This document shows, in pieces, positions 1,004-25,626 of a stretch of 64,000 bases of DNA. The DNA lies in contig NZ_QVFV01000004.1 in NCBI RefSeq assembly GCF_004212215.1, positions 186,001 to 250,000 of the forward strand, in the 5' to 3' direction. The position numbers were made by a program, and so were the translations under genes. The number at the start of each line of letters is the position of its first letter. Within the stretch, counting starts at the first letter, position 1. The stretch is from Leptolyngbya iicbica LK. Its GTDB lineage: Bacteria > Cyanobacteriota > Cyanobacteriia > Phormidesmidales > Phormidesmidaceae. A model generated the notes under the pieces. The model saw only the letters and a program-made list of their open reading frames with translations. It had not been told where the DNA came from and did not search any database.

Positions 1004-1729
1004 CTAAACACACCCATCGGGCCAGGTGACGGCAGGAAATTGCCCCGCCCGATATTGCACGACCTTGCCGTCAGCATCGGTTTCGAAGACTAGCCGGAAG
1101 AGGGCCAGTTCGGGATCTTGGGGTGTCAGGGTCAGAAACTCGCCTTGGGTATAAGGGTTGGGTGTGGCCTCGATTTGGCCCGGATACAGTTCGTCAATGT
1201 CTTTTAAAGTCGAGCCGATCTTGGCTCCACTCACGGTGGCTAGGGAACTGCCTGGCCATACATCAATGCGAATCACGCGGTTATCCACCACCATAAATCC
1301 CAGCGCTTGGGAGACCGAATCAGGCTGGTAGTAGGCGCAGTCGCCGCCCACATTGCTGCCAATCGGCACGAGCGGCAGACCCAGCGCATCGGTGGCTTCT
1401 TCCAAGGTCATGCCAATTTGGATAGGGCCAATGCCAGTCAAGCGAACTTCCGCGTCTTGGAAAACCGATTCTTCGACTAAAATTTCAGGATTGCTGGCGG
1501 CGATCGCTCGTTTCATTAAAGGCAAGTACAGCAATGACTTGGCGGCTGAGCCGAGCGGCTGCAAAGCGTTGGACACGGTTGATTGATCCGCCTGATCGAC
1601 AGGGGTCAAGGTCGGTCTGCTTGAGGCCGGGACGGCAGGAGCAGTGGCGCTGGAATGGTGCGTCATAATGGCACCAATGCCGACCAAGCTTAACAGTGCC
1701 GCTGCACCAACTAAGGAAACTTTGCTCAT
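1004..1729 (-). CDS. secreted or membrane-anchored hypothetical protein
   Basis: I do not recognise this 241-residue protein. It starts with a basic residue followed by a hydrophobic stretch (VSLVGAAALLSLVGIGAIM), consistent with a signal peptide or anchor. A Ser/Thr/Pro/Ala-rich linker follows. The C-terminal half (about residues 95-241) contains GIGPIQIGMTLEEATDALG and later SGAKIGSTLKDIDELYPGQ. This duplicated pattern, glycine-initiated strand then helix, recalls small periplasmic repeat folds of the BamE/SmpA-like type, but that is only a resemblance. Two cysteines (GGDCAYY and the third-last-residue region PDGCV) could form a disulfide. An extracytoplasmic location is inferred; function is unknown. 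Confidence 0.72.
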   Translation of the reverse strand: MSKVSLVGAAALLSLVGIGAIMTHHSSATAPAVPASSRPTLTPVDQADQSTVSNALQPLGSAAKSLLYLPLMKRAIAASNPEILVEESVFQDAEVRLTGIGPIQIGMTLEEATDALGLPLVPIGSNVGGDCAYYQPDSVSQALGFMVVDNRVIRIDVWPGSSLATVSGAKIGSTLKDIDELYPGQIEATPNPYTQGEFLTLTPQDPELALFRLVFETDADGKVVQYRAGQFPAVTWPDGCV

Positions 1730-1921
1730 AGGGCTTCCGACACAACTAGCAGTTTACATCTTGAAACAGGGAACATTAGACTCTTTTAACCGATTACCTC
1801 CCCTTTTGTCAGTCAAATGCCAACATTTTTCCGCATAAATACCTAAAAATCGGTCGATTAATTCCTCAATTCTCTCGCCCAATTCCCCATTCACTTGCTG
1901 CTTTAGGTCCAGGATTTAGAC

Positions 1922-2791
1922 GTGCGTCCCTCTTCTCGGTTATCTTCATCCTCTCTCATGGCTCGCCGCCGTCAGCGCCGCCCGAGTTGGTTACCCTTTT
2001 TGGTGGTTTTAGGTCCGTTTGTGGGGGCAGCGGGGTGGTTGGTCACCACCGGGTGGCCCGTTAGCCATAACCTGGGTCTGGTCGGTGAGGCTGACCTGGC
2101 GCCATCGGCGGCTGACCCAGCATTTTTGGGCGACGCGACCCCGCAGCCGTTAGTTGTGCCCGCGCCTACGGTGCCCAATAGCAGCAATGAGAAACGGCTA
2201 GCGCCCACGCGATCGCCCCTCGCCTTTGCTGATGTCCCCGAAGGCTACTGGGCAAAGCCCTATATCGATGCCCTTACCGCTCGCGAAGTGCTCAACGGTC
2301 TGCCGGATGGCACCTTTGCTCCCAATCGACAGCTGAGCCGAGCGGAGTTGGCGACGCAAGTCGCGAATGCGTTCGACATTCCCGCTAACACCCCAGCTAA
2401 AGCCTTTGGCGATCTCGCCCCCGATTACTGGGCGGCTGAGCCGATTGCCGAGGCTGTGCAAATGGGTTTCATGAAGGGCTATCCGGGGGACGAGTTCCGG
2501 CCCGATGATTTAGTGTCGCGCCTCCAGGTATTGGTGACCCTCGCCACGGGGCTGTCGCTACCCGTGACGGAGGAGTCACAGCAGCAATTGCAACAATATC
2601 AAGACTGGGAAACGGTGCCCGACTGGGCGCGTCCCCAAGTTGAGGCGGCCATCCATGCAGGCATCATTCGTCCTCAACCCGGCACAGAAAATCGGCTGCG
2701 CCCCCAAGAGATTGCCACACGGGCCGAAGTCGCCACATTGGTATATGCTGCGCTCGCCTATCTGGGCGAGGTGCCCGCTAAGCCTGAGTGA
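1922..2791 (+). CDS. SLH-domain protein with N-terminal membrane segment
   Basis: A 289-residue protein: a basic start (MARRRQRRPSW), one hydrophobic segment (LPFLVVLGPFVGAAGWLV), a variable linker, then S-layer-homology-type repeats from about residue 100. The first repeat reads FADVPEGYWAKPYIDALTAREVLNGLPDGTF followed by PNRQLSRAELATQV. The second reads FGDLAPDYWAAEPIAEAVQMGFMKGYPGDEFRPDD, and a third degenerate copy runs from DWETVPDWARPQVEAAIHAGII to RPQEIATRAEVATLVYAAL. In cyanobacteria SLH domains bind cell-wall polymers (outer-membrane porins, S-layer-like proteins); this one has no barrel and is probably held in the inner membrane facing the wall. The listed start is GTG at 1922; an ATG at 1958 giving MARRRQ is an equally good alternative. 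Confidence 0.88.
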   Translation: MRPSSRLSSSSLMARRRQRRPSWLPFLVVLGPFVGAAGWLVTTGWPVSHNLGLVGEADLAPSAADPAFLGDATPQPLVVPAPTVPNSSNEKRLAPTRSPLAFADVPEGYWAKPYIDALTAREVLNGLPDGTFAPNRQLSRAELATQVANAFDIPANTPAKAFGDLAPDYWAAEPIAEAVQMGFMKGYPGDEFRPDDLVSRLQVLVTLATGLSLPVTEESQQQLQQYQDWETVPDWARPQVEAAIHAGIIRPQPGTENRLRPQEIATRAEVATLVYAALAYLGEVPAKPE

Positions 2792-2895
2792 TTCTAAGGC
2801 TAAAAAAAACTCCCTGAATGTGGCACAGGGCAGCTATCCAAGGTCAAATTCACAAGTGAACATCTTGCTTTATCCAGCGACCGGTCGCCAACAAA

Positions 2896-2931
2896 AACGC
2901 CATTCAGCGCTGGTGCAAACTGAATGGCGTT
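2896..2931 (-). terminator. 12-bp perfect stem, terminator of the coiled-coil gene
   Basis: AACGCCATTCAG (2896-2907) and CTGAATGGCGTT (2920-2931) are perfectly complementary around a 12-nt loop. On the minus strand the second arm runs into a T-rich tract (GGCGTTTTTGTT), the layout of an intrinsic terminator for the gene ending at 2960. It lies between two convergent genes and may also stop readthrough from the plus-strand SLH gene. Confidence 0.8.
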
Positions 2932-2959
2932 GATGGCGTAATTTAACGTTGTGGCAGGA

Positions 2960-3532
2960 TTAGCTGGTGAAACCGGGGAGACTGACCCCCTCGGTAAAGC
3001 TGGGCAAATCGAGTTGTTGCGATCGCCGAGTCCGCACTGCCAAGCGATAGCTCACGCTCTGCAATTCCGCCTGTAAGCGACGATTTTCACCCTGCAATTG
3101 CTTGATCTTGTCGCGCACGGTCACCATGCGCTCGTCAAATTTTTGTTTGTAAACCTTGGGCAGTTCTTGCACGACCTGCTCTAGCATCCGGGTGCGATCG
3201 GTCAGTTCTTGCACGGTCTGGCGCAGTTGAACGGTTTCCGTGCTGCGTTCTTCGAGCTGACCCTGATAGTAGGTAACCTGCTTTTCGACACTTTGCAATT
3301 GCTCGCGCAGGGCTTTGACCTCAGCTTGTTGCTGCTCTGAAGCTTCGGTCGTCGCAGGTACTACACCGGCATTGCCTTTCACCAGGCGAAATAATTCACG
3401 CGAAAGCTGCTGTACCAGCTCGTCACGCATTTGCAACTCTTCGCGCAGACGGGTCATCTCCGCCTGCTGTGCAGCATATGCAGAATTTGAGTTCATCACT
3501 TGCGTCACACCACTAACCCTTATTCCCAACAA
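2960..3532 (-). CDS. coiled-coil hypothetical protein, Npun_F5560-like
   Basis: A 190-residue, highly charged protein dominated by heptad-like helices: MTRLREELQMRDELVQQLS, then LFRLVKGNAG, VKALREQLQSVEKQVTYYQ, LRQTVQELTDRTRMLEQVV and IKQLQGENRRLQAELQSV. The tail ends SYRLAVRTRRSQQLDLPSF. There is no signal peptide or membrane segment. From memory the LVQQLSRELFRLVKGN block and the VSYRLAVRTRR end match a cyanobacterial family annotated as 'Npun_F5560 family'; I cannot verify this. Its role is unknown; a structural or scaffolding protein is plausible. An alternative start at Met13 (3496) would begin right before the coiled-coil region. A strong terminator follows at 2896-2931. Confidence 0.8.
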   Translation of the reverse strand: MLGIRVSGVTQVMNSNSAYAAQQAEMTRLREELQMRDELVQQLSRELFRLVKGNAGVVPATTEASEQQQAEVKALREQLQSVEKQVTYYQGQLEERSTETVQLRQTVQELTDRTRMLEQVVQELPKVYKQKFDERMVTVRDKIKQLQGENRRLQAELQSVSYRLAVRTRRSQQLDLPSFTEGVSLPGFTS

Positions 3533-23572: not shown

Positions 23573-24058
23573 ATGTCTGAGCCGTCTAAAAACCGTCCAG
23601 ATATTGCCTATATTCCGACCCCCGACGATGCCGTTGACGCCATGTTGGAATTGGCTCAAGTGGGCGCTGATGACGTGCTGTATGACTTGGGCTGTGGCGA
23701 TGGTCGACTCTTGATTCGAGCGGCGACCCGGTGGGGCACGCGCGGCGTCGGTATTGATATCGATCCTGCCTGCATTCAGCAAACGCGCCAAAATGCTCAA
23801 ACGGCTGGAGTTGACCATCTGCTGACTCTGCAACAAGGCAACTTATACGACAGCGATGTTGCAGCGGCCACCGTGGTGGCTCTCTATTTGCTGCCCCATC
23901 TCAATGCCCGGCTCTGTCCGCGCTTACTGCAACAGTTGCGTCCCGGTGCCCGCATCGTGTCTCATCAGTTCGACATGGGCGACTGGGAACCCGATGAAAT
24001 TTTGACGCTCCCTGCTTCCGAAGAGGAGTCCGTAATTTATCTTTGGAAAATTCGTTAG
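23573..24058 (+). CDS. class I SAM-dependent methyltransferase
   Basis: A 161-residue small methyltransferase. The glycine-rich SAM site is DVLYDLGCGDGRLLIRAATRWGTRGVGIDIDP, with motif I DLGCGDG and the acidic end of strand 2 in GIDIDP. Motif II/III correspond to TVVALYLLPHLNARLCPRLLQQLRPGARIVSHQF. The upstream segment DIAYIPTPDDAVDAMLELAQVG resembles FAM173-like methyltransferases (lysine methylation of ATP synthase or elongation factors in other organisms), but the target here is unknown. It follows the hypothetical gene by 10 bp and is followed by a structured non-coding stretch. Confidence 0.9.
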   Translation: MSEPSKNRPDIAYIPTPDDAVDAMLELAQVGADDVLYDLGCGDGRLLIRAATRWGTRGVGIDIDPACIQQTRQNAQTAGVDHLLTLQQGNLYDSDVAAATVVALYLLPHLNARLCPRLLQQLRPGARIVSHQFDMGDWEPDEILTLPASEEESVIYLWKIR

Positions 24059-24430
24059 GGCTGATTTGCAGTTATAGCAGAGGCTCGAAAGGTTCAAGGT
24101 GTACGGTATACGGAATGCTTTTACCGTCAGCAATTCGGCCACTGAACGTGACTTCATCTGATTGCGGTTCGCTATACGAGGAATGCGGATGGCATCAGTT
24201 GATCTGGTCGCTGTCGTGGTTCATCGGTCAGTAGGTTAGGGGACGGGGCCCTCGAACTGGCCCTCACTGTTTTGGTAGAGCCGACAGGGACCCGTCCCCT
24301 GATGATTTTAGAAACCCGTCCGCTGATGATTTGATTGGTAGAGCAAATGAGATTGCGCGATCGCGGCCAATAAAGCAGTTCATTTGAACTGACTTGTGAT
24401 AACCTGAGGCGAATCGTCACCCGCTCAATG
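24059..24430. other. structured spacer with long-range inverted and direct repeats
   Basis: No gene is seen. AGGGGACGGG (24238-24247) and CCCGTCCCCT (24291-24300) are a perfect 10-bp inverted pair enclosing 43 bases. Inside and beyond, two near-identical 19-mers (24290-24308 and 24314-24332, one mismatch) are separated by five bases, and TTGGTAGAGC appears at both 24272-24281 and 24335-24344. This density of pairing is unusual for the window. It may be a transcribed leader, a decayed small element, or the end of the upstream transcription unit. Confidence 0.6.
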
Positions 24431-24547
24431 TTGCAACAAGCGTTGCAGTTTTATGGCGCTCTCTGATCGTGACGATTGCAACAAGCTGTTGCAGTTTTAT
24501 ATTTGCCCCTCTGACTTAAATACTGCAGCAAGCTGTTGCAGTATTGA
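24431..24547. repeat. three tandem palindromic units before the DUF1016 nuclease gene
   Basis: Three units start at 24431, 24476 and 24523, spaced 45 and 47 bases. The core of unit 2 is the perfect dyad TGCAACA-AGC-TGTTGCA. Unit 1 has one base missing in the right arm and unit 3 has CTGCAGCAAGCTGTTGCAG. Units 1 and 2 share GCAGTTTTAT after the core and CTCTGA further on, so the repeat reaches beyond the dyad. Unit 3 overlaps the probable translation-initiation region of the gene starting at 24559. They could be operators, RNA hairpins, or a repeat-containing RNA. Confidence 0.75.
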
Positions 24548-24558
24548 GCCTCACCGCT

Positions 24559-25626
24559 ATGGCTGCTTTACTTCCCTCGCAAAGCCCGGAATACGAAGAC
24601 CTCATCACGCATCTCAAAGACCGGATTCGGCAGGCCCGGGTGCGATCGGCCTTGGCCGTCAATCGGGAGTTGGTCTTACTCTACTGGTACATTGGGCGCG
24701 AAATTTTGCAACGCCAAACGGAGCAAGGTTGGGGTAGTAAAGTGATCGATCGCATCGCCCAAGATCTGCGCCAGGCGTTTCCAGAAATGAAGGGGTTTTC
24801 GCCGCGCAACCTGCACTACATGCGGGCCTTTGCCGAAACCTACACCGACGAATCAATTCTGCAACAGGTGGTTGCAAATTTGCCGTGGGGCCATAATGTG
24901 CGGCTGATGGAAGCCGTGAAAGACCCAGAAGCCCGCCTCTGGTATGCGCAACAGGCGATCGCCCATGGCTGGAGCCGCAATATTTTAATGACGCAGATTG
25001 ACCAGCAGCTCTACGGGCAAAAGCAAAGCAGCGCGATTACTAATTTTGAGCGCACGCTGCCCGATGTGCAGTCTGATCTCGCCCGTGACTTGGTCAAAAA
25101 TTCCTATACTTTTGACTTTCTGGCGATCGCTGCGGATGCTCAAGAGCGCGATGTGCAAAAAGCGCTGGTCGATCACATTCGTGATTTTTTACTAGAGTTG
25201 GGCGTGGGATTTGCCTTTGTCGGCAGTCAATACCATCTGGAAGTGGGGGGCGAAGATTTCTATATCGACCTGCTGTTTTATCATCTCAAACTGCGCTGTT
25301 TTGTAGTGATTGATTTGAAGATGGGCGACTTTCAGCCCGAGTTTTCTGGCAAGATGAATTTCTATGTTTCAGCAGTTGATGATTTACTCCGTCATGGTGA
25401 CGATCGCCCCACGATTGGCATGATTTTGTGTCGGTCTAAAAATAAAGCGATCGCTGAATATGCTCTCCGCGATTTGCAAAAACCCATCGGCATTTCGACC
25501 CATCGCACTGATAAAGAACTGCCTGACCCACTTAAGCCCGAGCTACCGTCGGTAGAGCGATTAGAGCAAGAACTCAGTAACGTTGATTTGCGGACTAATC
25601 AAGCGGGCGATCGTAACAATGTGTAA
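24559..25626 (+). CDS. YhcG/DUF1016 PD-(D/E)XK nuclease-domain protein
   Basis: About 355 residues from ATG at 24559 (MAALLPSQSPEYEDLITHL); an upstream TTG at 24544 is less likely. The N-terminal domain (about 10-165) reads RSALAVNRELVLLYWYIGREI, GWGSKVIDRIAQDLRQAFPEMKGFSPRNLHYMRAF, and LPWGHNVRLMEAVKDPEARLWY, the DUF1016 N-terminal signature. The C-terminal nuclease-like domain has VGSQYHLEVGGEDFYIDLLFYHLKLRCFVVIDLKMGDF, where Asp and the DLK triad fit a PD-(D/E)XK active site, then MNFYVSAVDDL and GMILCRSKNKAIAEYAL. Family members are often linked to restriction loci; here none is adjacent. Three palindromic repeats stand immediately upstream, and no Shine-Dalgarno sequence is obvious. Confidence 0.92.
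   Translation: MAALLPSQSPEYEDLITHLKDRIRQARVRSALAVNRELVLLYWYIGREILQRQTEQGWGSKVIDRIAQDLRQAFPEMKGFSPRNLHYMRAFAETYTDESILQQVVANLPWGHNVRLMEAVKDPEARLWYAQQAIAHGWSRNILMTQIDQQLYGQKQSSAITNFERTLPDVQSDLARDLVKNSYTFDFLAIAADAQERDVQKALVDHIRDFLLELGVGFAFVGSQYHLEVGGEDFYIDLLFYHLKLRCFVVIDLKMGDFQPEFSGKMNFYVSAVDDLLRHGDDRPTIGMILCRSKNKAIAEYALRDLQKPIGISTHRTDKELPDPLKPELPSVERLEQELSNVDLRTNQAGDRNNV

Follow-up and report, generated by a model that had tools for sequence, protein, structure and literature searches.

Three palindromic units stand in tandem directly before a gene for a DUF1016/YhcG nuclease in Leptolyngbya iicbica LK, within the window analysed here (a stretch of 64,000 nucleotides), and the locus raises the question of what such an array does and which molecule reads it. 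An operator array, a structured leader controlling translation and an RNA partner of the nuclease had all been proposed in an earlier note. Comparison of the sequences, together with a structural model, makes it probable that the palindromes are the cognate sites of a ParB-like domain of the gene's own product, and that the upstream copies form a likely autoregulatory operator array. The location of the sites, their compensating changes, the code that links them to the protein, the upstream copies and the upstream sites of genes that have no in-gene palindrome were all computed directly.

The three units are present, at spacings of 45 and 47 and with small corrections to their coordinates (Table 1); the core of the second is a perfect dyad, as had been described, and units 1 and 2 do share GCAGTTTTAT and CTCTGA. 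The third unit had been placed over the initiation region of the nuclease gene, but, with the ATG at 24559 as the assigned start codon, its core stops 18 nt before the start and belongs to the leader. With up to one mismatch, TGCAACA-N3-TGTTGCA has three matches in the 5.7 Mb genome (one for a reversed control pattern), namely units 2 and 3 and a site inside the gene, and because all three fall within 400 bases at the DUF1016 locus, with none outside it, the dyads at this gene are not a matter of chance. Palindromes of the REP/RAYT type were rejected, since no copy with up to one mismatch occurs away from the locus and the element is thus not dispersed in the genome. The interval between the methyltransferase gene and the dyads also holds a 15-base inverted repeat, AGGGGACGGGGCCCT / AGGGACCCGTCCCCT, with 93% complementarity (24238-24300), together with a direct repeat of 19 bases (at 24290 and 24314) in the region 24238-24332.

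Table 1. Coordinates, in the window, of the palindromes, the nuclease gene and the parts of it discussed in the text
Feature	Position	Strand	Description
Upstream dyad 1	24432-24447	.	Core TGCAACAAGCGTTGCA, 2-base centre
Sigma70-like promoter match	24476-24503	+	TTGCAA-16-TATATT; consensus match only; overlaps dyad 2
Upstream dyad 2	24477-24493	.	TGCAACAAGCTGTTGCA, perfect TGCAACA-AGC-TGTTGCA
Upstream dyad 3	24524-24540	.	TGCAGCAAGCTGTTGCA, TGCAGCA-AGC-TGTTGCA, one change; arms extend to 24519-24545
DUF1016/YhcG nuclease gene	24559-25626	+	355 aa; PF17761 and PF06250; PADLOC PDC-S02
Codons of helix 82-94	24802-24840	+	Covariation of residues 82/83/86 with the palindrome's outer dinucleotide
In-gene dyad	24860-24876	.	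TGCAACAGGTGGTTGCA; falls in the codons for LQQVVA (residues 101-106), where the palindrome is conserved in the family
Codons of helix 110-119	24886-24915	+	WGHNVRLMEA; covariation of residues 111/114/115 with the palindrome's inner bases
PD-(D/E)XK nuclease domain (YhcG_C)	25087-25548	+	Pfam match

The protein belongs to the DUF1016/YhcG family, with both Pfam domains above the curated cut-off: DUF1016_N at residues 19-153 (159.8 bits, cut-off 32.8) and YhcG_C at residues 177-330 (208.8 bits, cut-off 32.5). By the latter and by the PADLOC profile PDC-S02 (E 2e-152), which is listed as candidate defence, it is a member of the same group as E. coli YhcG. DUF1016 matches were found in 86 of the 143 genomes searched (the host and its relatives), with up to 14 per genome and three in the host, and homologs occur on 487 plasmid and 15 phage records, while K-12 yhcG has a match in 4417 of 5426 complete E. 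coli genomes. A second host paralog (L006, G000:C3:119099-120589) has an imperfect palindrome with 6/8 pairs and adjoins a ParB-like gene (HTH_ParB match at C3:120401).

The near-palindrome that had been noticed inside the gene is confirmed, and it turns out to be a widely conserved element of the family. In a codon alignment of 128 homologs, for which loci of the same gene were merged (the survey of upstream DNA has 132 rows, of which L057 and L069 are one gene), 112 carry it with six or more of the eight arm pairs formed; all eight pairs are formed in 65 genes, seven in 31, six in 16 and fewer in 16. Over 8888 combinations of position and centre, perfect 7-bp arms around a 5-nt centre were found at this place in 78 of 128 genes, against at most 4% at unrelated places, and 88% of the cells are paired here, compared with a mean of 25% for all combinations and 64% at the best unrelated place. 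The arms compensate for each other across genes, as in GTGCAACA, GTCCAGCA, GGCCAACA, GTGCTACA, GTGCAAGA and GTGCACCA, and the encoded amino acids vary along with them (VQQVVA, VQQLAG, GQQAVG, VLQVIA, VQEVLA, VHQAGA). Among the 128 genes, nucleotides 2 and 16 are paired in 115 against 65 expected under independence, 5 and 13 in 108 against 56, and 6 and 12 in 108 against 81; nothing can be learned from the pair (3,15) or from the flanking AATT, which hardly vary. Synonymous recoding with the protein held fixed gives a mean of 3.98 of 8 pairs, versus 6.84 observed, and in any of 500 trials perfect sites in at most two genes, versus 65. In phylogenetically independent pairs, nt2 and nt16 change together (mean 10.6:0, same to opposite; median p 0.001), and parsimony assigns 26 and 24 changes to the two sides of the pair (2,16) and 30 to the pair jointly, with 33, 24 and 34, respectively, for (5,13). 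Presence of the palindrome as a trait takes 9 changes on the tree.

More distant homologs have the element in the same place. K-12 yhcG has a perfect palindrome with 15-bp arms, AAAGATTTGGCAGAC-GCT-GTCTGCCAAATCTTT, in the corresponding stretch, which was matched by eye, next to a second unit that has apparently decayed; E. coli E21 and BL21 have two units and an O157:H7 strain one (L212, L210, L215, L169), and L226 has two units 54 nt apart. Further loci were drawn from the class of an Achromobacter genome, from viral contigs, plasmids and phages, from two alleles of E. coli and from additional paralogs of cyanobacteria. Among them, the longest palindrome lies at the in-gene place in 38 of the 49 genes that have the placing motif; in five (L198, L218, L243, L244, L247) a palindrome is found there and a longer one elsewhere, and by this longest-palindrome measure it is absent or poor in six (L207, L221, L232, L241, L245, L253). 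Twenty other loci have no placing motif, and 16 were omitted beforehand as duplicates or truncated copies, among them L170, which is not a duplicate and has the palindrome. In the E. coli strains L210 (BL21(DE3), 3001-3405), L211, L213 and L216, yhcG is broken beside insertion elements, and in BL21 the break falls at the end of the second palindrome unit.

If the palindrome is a site, its reader may be the very domain whose codons surround it. A model of the N-domain (residues 1-164, from 23 sequences, pLDDT 89.6) has helices at 82-94, 98-103 and 110-119, and the palindrome codons sit between the first and the last of these, the two that bear the code described below. Compared with 367 aligned PDB chains, the first 12 matches of the model are all ParB/Noc/Spo0J (Z 7.3-9.3), followed by SopB (Z 5.5) and the unrelated Raf1 (Z 5.4), helical domains being able to reach middling Z scores by chance. 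Foldseek gave a weak best match (E 0.68, probability 0.92), and a search of PDB chains with profile A2 (58 sequences) brought up no ParB at E up to 10. By sequence comparison, no solved relative was found for the window protein, E. coli YhcG or the N-domain profile, whose matches to uL24m and to a designed protein were judged to be chance. The nuclease half came out poorly in an initial whole-protein model, the interpretation of which was confined to the other half. The DUF1016 motifs GFSPRNL..MR and WGHNVRLL resemble the ParB motifs GKSR..V.N and AGHARALL. On this resemblance and the aligned ranges, residues 82-83 would be equivalent to ParB 173, and residue 111 to ParB 201. DUF1016_N, as modelled, resembles the DNA-binding domains of ParB/Noc, and the two systems may be alike in the fold of that domain, besides having a palindrome in common (parS/NBS in the case of ParB/Noc, a putative site in that of DUF1016). 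A parS site can also fall within the parB (spo0J) gene itself.

The correspondence extends to how specificity may be set. According to one study, ParB/Noc specificity is switched at two separated positions, residue 173 for base position 1 and residue 201 for base position 6, with 179/184 as permissive residues (PMC7383237); on our reading, position 1 is the outer and position 6 the inner base. The DUF1016 residues 82/83/86 and 111/114 form a similar arrangement. Considering protein columns outside the palindrome, the highest mutual information with the inner bases was found at residues 111, 114 and 115 (z 30.7, 27.0 and 16.3), and with the outer dinucleotide at residues 83, 82 and 86 (z 35.5, 23.5 and 11.4). 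This link is not one of coding identity, because residues 82-86 are encoded before the palindrome and 111-115 after it. In the 112 genes with at least 6/8 pairs, CAACA goes with G111 in 29 of 36 (S in 7), CAGCA with F111 in 17 of 21 and with G in the other four, CACCA with K/R111 in 17/17, CAACG with R-I-A in 10/10, CAGCG with R-Q in 6/6, CTAC with G-Q in 8/8, CAAG with Y in 10/10 and CAGGA with Y-Q-A in 4/4. As for the outer dinucleotide, all 71 genes with TG have R83, as follows from two tabulations taken together, and none of the 41 others does, so that this rule fits 112/112; TC/TT goes with R82 and S/T83, GC with R-S-K, and GT with Q-T-K in 5/6.

Shared ancestry was taken into account with independent pairs on the tree, in which same-direction changes on average prevail over opposite ones for outer TG and R83 (10:0, p 0.002), nt7 G and R111 (6.7:0.3, median p 0.016), nt6 G and Y111 (6:0, median p 0.03), nt5 C and K111 (6.5:0, p 0.03) and nt5 G and F111 (5.3:0, median p 0.06). 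Further single comparisons were flat, weak or opposite: for residue 114, nt5 A with V (2.0:0), G with C (4.9:2.0), G with I (0:2.6) and C with Q (0:3.5); for residue 115, nt4 T with A (0.5:1.3), nt1 G with T/I/V (0.3:3.4) and nt2 C with A (2.5:3.3); and for residue 83, nt1 G with T (0.3:0.5) and nt2 C with S (4.1:0, p 0.125). The combination of nt5 C with K/R111 and Q114 (0 same, 1-3 opposite) was an ill-chosen trait, in place of which K111 alone was used. Among 43 held-out genes with a palindrome, 20 are of a known inner type, and residue 111 was predicted correctly in 18 (misses in L221 and L237), against 10 for always guessing G and a mean of 7.1 and maximum of 15 for permuted data. The rule of R83 if and only if TG held in 24 of 25 held-out genes of at least 45% identity (miss in L206), a count that includes L192, L218, L219 and L220, which have Q or A in place of S/T at residue 83, and, for L192, a site in the wrong register. 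A distant, YhcG-like branch has a pattern of its own, noticed after the fact, with S111 accompanying nt6 A in 7/7 genes and T111 accompanying nt6 G/T in 8/8 (L205 included), and with L241 and L246, which have S111 with nt6 C, as exceptions. In the two-unit E. coli alleles the outer bases differ within one gene, each unit being symmetric, and strict sequence reading therefore fails for some outer pairs.

Upstream copies are much less widespread than the in-gene palindrome. A scan of 290 genomes for exact TGCAACA-N3-TGTTGCA gave 49 sites, spread over 43 genomes, and the reversed control gave 2. Of the sites inspected, which are all except five in G009, G133, G206, G232 and G279, 28 are at DUF1016 genes (14 upstream, 14 in-gene) and 16 are elsewhere. 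The survey of upstream DNA comprised 132 loci, with the G002 gene represented twice, and covered 17-3000 nt per locus, with less than 300 nt in six (L027, L031, L081, L083, L113, L156). Dyads with up to one mismatch precede 10 genes (L008, L067-L070, L013, L015, L016, L059, L168) from genera g1, g7, g8 and g11 of one family, in 1-3 copies at positions -35 to -1228; the trait is not cleanly that of one clade, because the tree needs two changes. Weaker upstream dyads, with two mismatches, were found in L114 and L145, and a search with each gene's own arms gave one other upstream copy with up to one mismatch (L035, at -90). A conserved repeat of about 46 bp had been proposed as something to look for ahead of DUF1016 genes; what precedes these 10 genes, which belong to few related genera, are dyads that vary in spacing and number. 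Homologs with no trace of the repeats had been named as evidence against the proposal, and upstream copies are indeed missing in most homologs, although the same homologs carry the in-gene palindrome. A second genomic copy of TGCAAG-N5-CTTGCA is, by our estimate, within chance.

Three genes (L015, L016, L168) have no in-gene palindrome (0-2/8 pairs) and keep TGCAACA-N3-TGTTGCA upstream, in agreement with the code, in which R83/G111/V114/R115 predicts TG-CAACA. The site is therefore separable from its coding role, which fits an operator, and these genes presumably lost the in-gene copy after the upstream one had arisen. Seven others (L017-L019, L021-L023, L027) count against the proposal, since they bear R83 and G111/V114/R115 and yet neither the gene nor the DNA just ahead of it yielded a palindrome (232 nt of upstream DNA being covered for L027); L017 and L018 have one in-gene match each, with up to two mismatches, outside the usual place. 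Six of the seven, all of genus g2, belong to genomes with exactly one exact site, TGCAACACGCTGTTGCA, inside a nucleoside hydrolase gene (L061-L066, in G037, G006, G019, G026, G039 and G034), identified as such by Pfam on one of them; this orthologous site makes up six of the 16 exact sites found elsewhere. At this site lies the longest stretch of codons that are the same in all six orthologs (6 in a row), which overall have 55 of 200 amino-acid-invariant degenerate codons identical. It is possibly a relocated site, a reading that is only suggestive because g2 genomes without the DUF1016 type have no close ortholog of the hydrolase (a 32% identical match in G030, none in G042). Another of the 16, in G001, lies beside a gene for the same methyltransferase as in the window; the G001 piece (L056) carries this methyltransferase together with a dyad and an ORF related to one of 216 aa in G002, with no DUF1016 gene on the piece examined. 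The gene of a Tenacibaculum plasmid (L253) has no good in-gene palindrome, and AATTCTCGCACGGTTGTGCGAGAATT stands just ahead of it, at about -31 relative to the ORF start as assigned; here the site may have moved independently. The palindrome-less DUF1016 gene of L018 is preceded by direct repeats, recognised by eye, of some 34 bp.

Taken as a mechanism, DUF1016_N, probably as a dimer, would read the palindrome through two elements in each half-site, with helix 82-94 responsible for the outer dinucleotide and the inner bases left to helix 110-119. In most of the members examined, the site would lie within the DNA encoding the stretch between the two reading helices and, because of that position, site and reader would be inherited together. 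The window gene and nine relatives have extra copies upstream, which in the window extend over the promoter-like match and the leader and would most likely act as a repressor operator array; that promoter-like match is the only one in 24040-24700, and the 0.4 expected in shuffled sequence counts against it. The protein most likely binds its own palindrome or palindromes and so limits its own expression; we infer the physical binding, the dimer, the repression and the direction in which sites moved. KorB-like repressors and the C proteins of restriction-modification systems have autoregulated operators, which are likewise palindromic and near the promoter of their own gene. The DNA-binding domain of KorB (1r71, Z 6.4) matched the first model and is absent from the list of the second. 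Unlike KorB-like repressors, the DUF1016 reader is fused to a nuclease and its usual site is inside the ORF, and a position 300 nt inside an ORF would be uncommon for a repressing operator, which counts against the proposal. The family also differs from ParB/Noc in its C-terminal PD-(D/E)XK nuclease, in having its own palindrome per gene type within the coding region of the DNA-binding domain, with many types per genome, and in that no ParB N-terminal/CTPase domain was found in the window protein, where DUF1016_N and YhcG_C are the only Pfam domains above cut-off. None of the ParB-like proteins of the relatives had the expected motif. Of the three readings proposed at the outset, the operator array is the best supported, by the flexible positions of the site and by a sequence predictable from apparently DNA-reading residues of the gene's own product.

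More tentatively, DUF1016/YhcG proteins could be self-addressed nucleases, in which the DNA encoding part of the domain is the sequence read and the types serve as an identity code for regulation and possibly exclusion; a resident nuclease would recognise copies of its own kind, and its site may duplicate in tandem, move upstream and perhaps, in g2, into another gene. A purely nuclease-directed form, in which the palindrome is a target or tag that steers the nuclease to DNA bearing a gene of its own type, as kin exclusion among mobile elements, is unlikely. The fusion of reader and nuclease, the PADLOC listing as candidate defence and the plasmid and phage homologs agree with it, as does the scarcity of same-genome paralogs that share the inner 5-nt type (3 of 77 typed pairs against 10.7 expected, P 0.0024, from the 25 genomes in which two or more paralogs were typed, of whose paralogs these are a subset). 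However, such a shortage could come alike from cross-regulation, since cross-repression also selects against paralogs of the same type, and avoidance of the 7-nt type is not significant (2 against 4.3, P 0.18); moreover, the nuclease would be directed at its own resident gene, and upstream copies by a promoter-like match and leader look regulatory.

The palindrome might instead work as an RNA hairpin, bound by the protein in the mRNA for translational control, or as an attenuator or RNA partner, which we consider improbable. Its arms can form hairpins, dyad 2 scores as terminator-like (one of 4 such sites in 24040-24700, against 0.6 expected), symmetry in the E. coli alleles sometimes goes beyond the protein-linked bases, and genes with at least 6/8 pairs have T-G at nt2 five times and G-T at nt5 seven times, where A-C never occurs and C-A once. 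Over all mispairs, on the other hand, there is no G-U excess (16 G-T/T-G against 29 A-C/C-A), no Rfam match was obtained, and in L069 (G002; 1201-3001) a 216-aa ORF separates the far dyads (-1146, -1228) from the DUF1016 gene. With the dyad of homologs also lying inside the ORF, the structured leader and the RNA partner fare less well than the operator, the terminator-like score of dyad 2 being what speaks for the leader. The recognition code and the modelled ParB-like fold favour double-stranded DNA over RNA as the substrate.

Template switching yields symmetric arms without selection, and copying of changes from arm to arm in a quasi-palindrome could account for the outer bases of the E. coli units, which vary symmetrically; as a general explanation it is very improbable, since it leaves the links to residues 83 and 111, encoded outside the palindrome, unexplained, and has no account of the held-out prediction, the same place in distant homologs or the upstream copies of predicted type. 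We give as little credence to the idea that the upstream dyads serve some unrelated regulator of the host: many repressors do have their operator dyads over promoter-like matches, but the genome has no copy with up to one mismatch outside the DUF1016 locus, and the motif is that of the conserved in-gene palindrome and fits the gene's own code. A type III toxin-antitoxin array, suggested by tandem repeats ahead of a nuclease gene, can be set aside, as the protein is DUF1016/PD-(D/E)XK and not a ToxN-like RNase, and the upstream repeats are not kept in homologs, with 1-3 dyads of up to one mismatch at variable spacing in 10 genes only.

No palindrome, operator, binding site or code is described for DUF1016/YhcG/PDC-S02, and no function is given for YhcG/DUF1016, in the literature covered, to which subscription papers and bioRxiv largely do not belong; PDC-S02 and E. 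coli YhcG thus appear there without the features found at the window gene. In the portions of these sources available, the N-domain is called unknown and mainly helical (PMC1189080), DUF1016 is placed on mobile elements (PMC4316617), an antisense RNA is reported at yhcG (PMC7967276) and the family is merely named (PMC11341870; PMC11719660), while a term search of PMC12704722 returned neither DUF1016 nor YhcG. These widespread nucleases now gain a candidate binding site, a two-place amino-acid-to-base code and a ParB-like mechanism, all put forward here as predictions. The results point to a bacterial gene family whose coding DNA bears the putative recognition site of its own product, with which it co-evolves. 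If true, the family would provide many orthogonal pairs of protein and site, and a route to asking what the role of the nuclease is.
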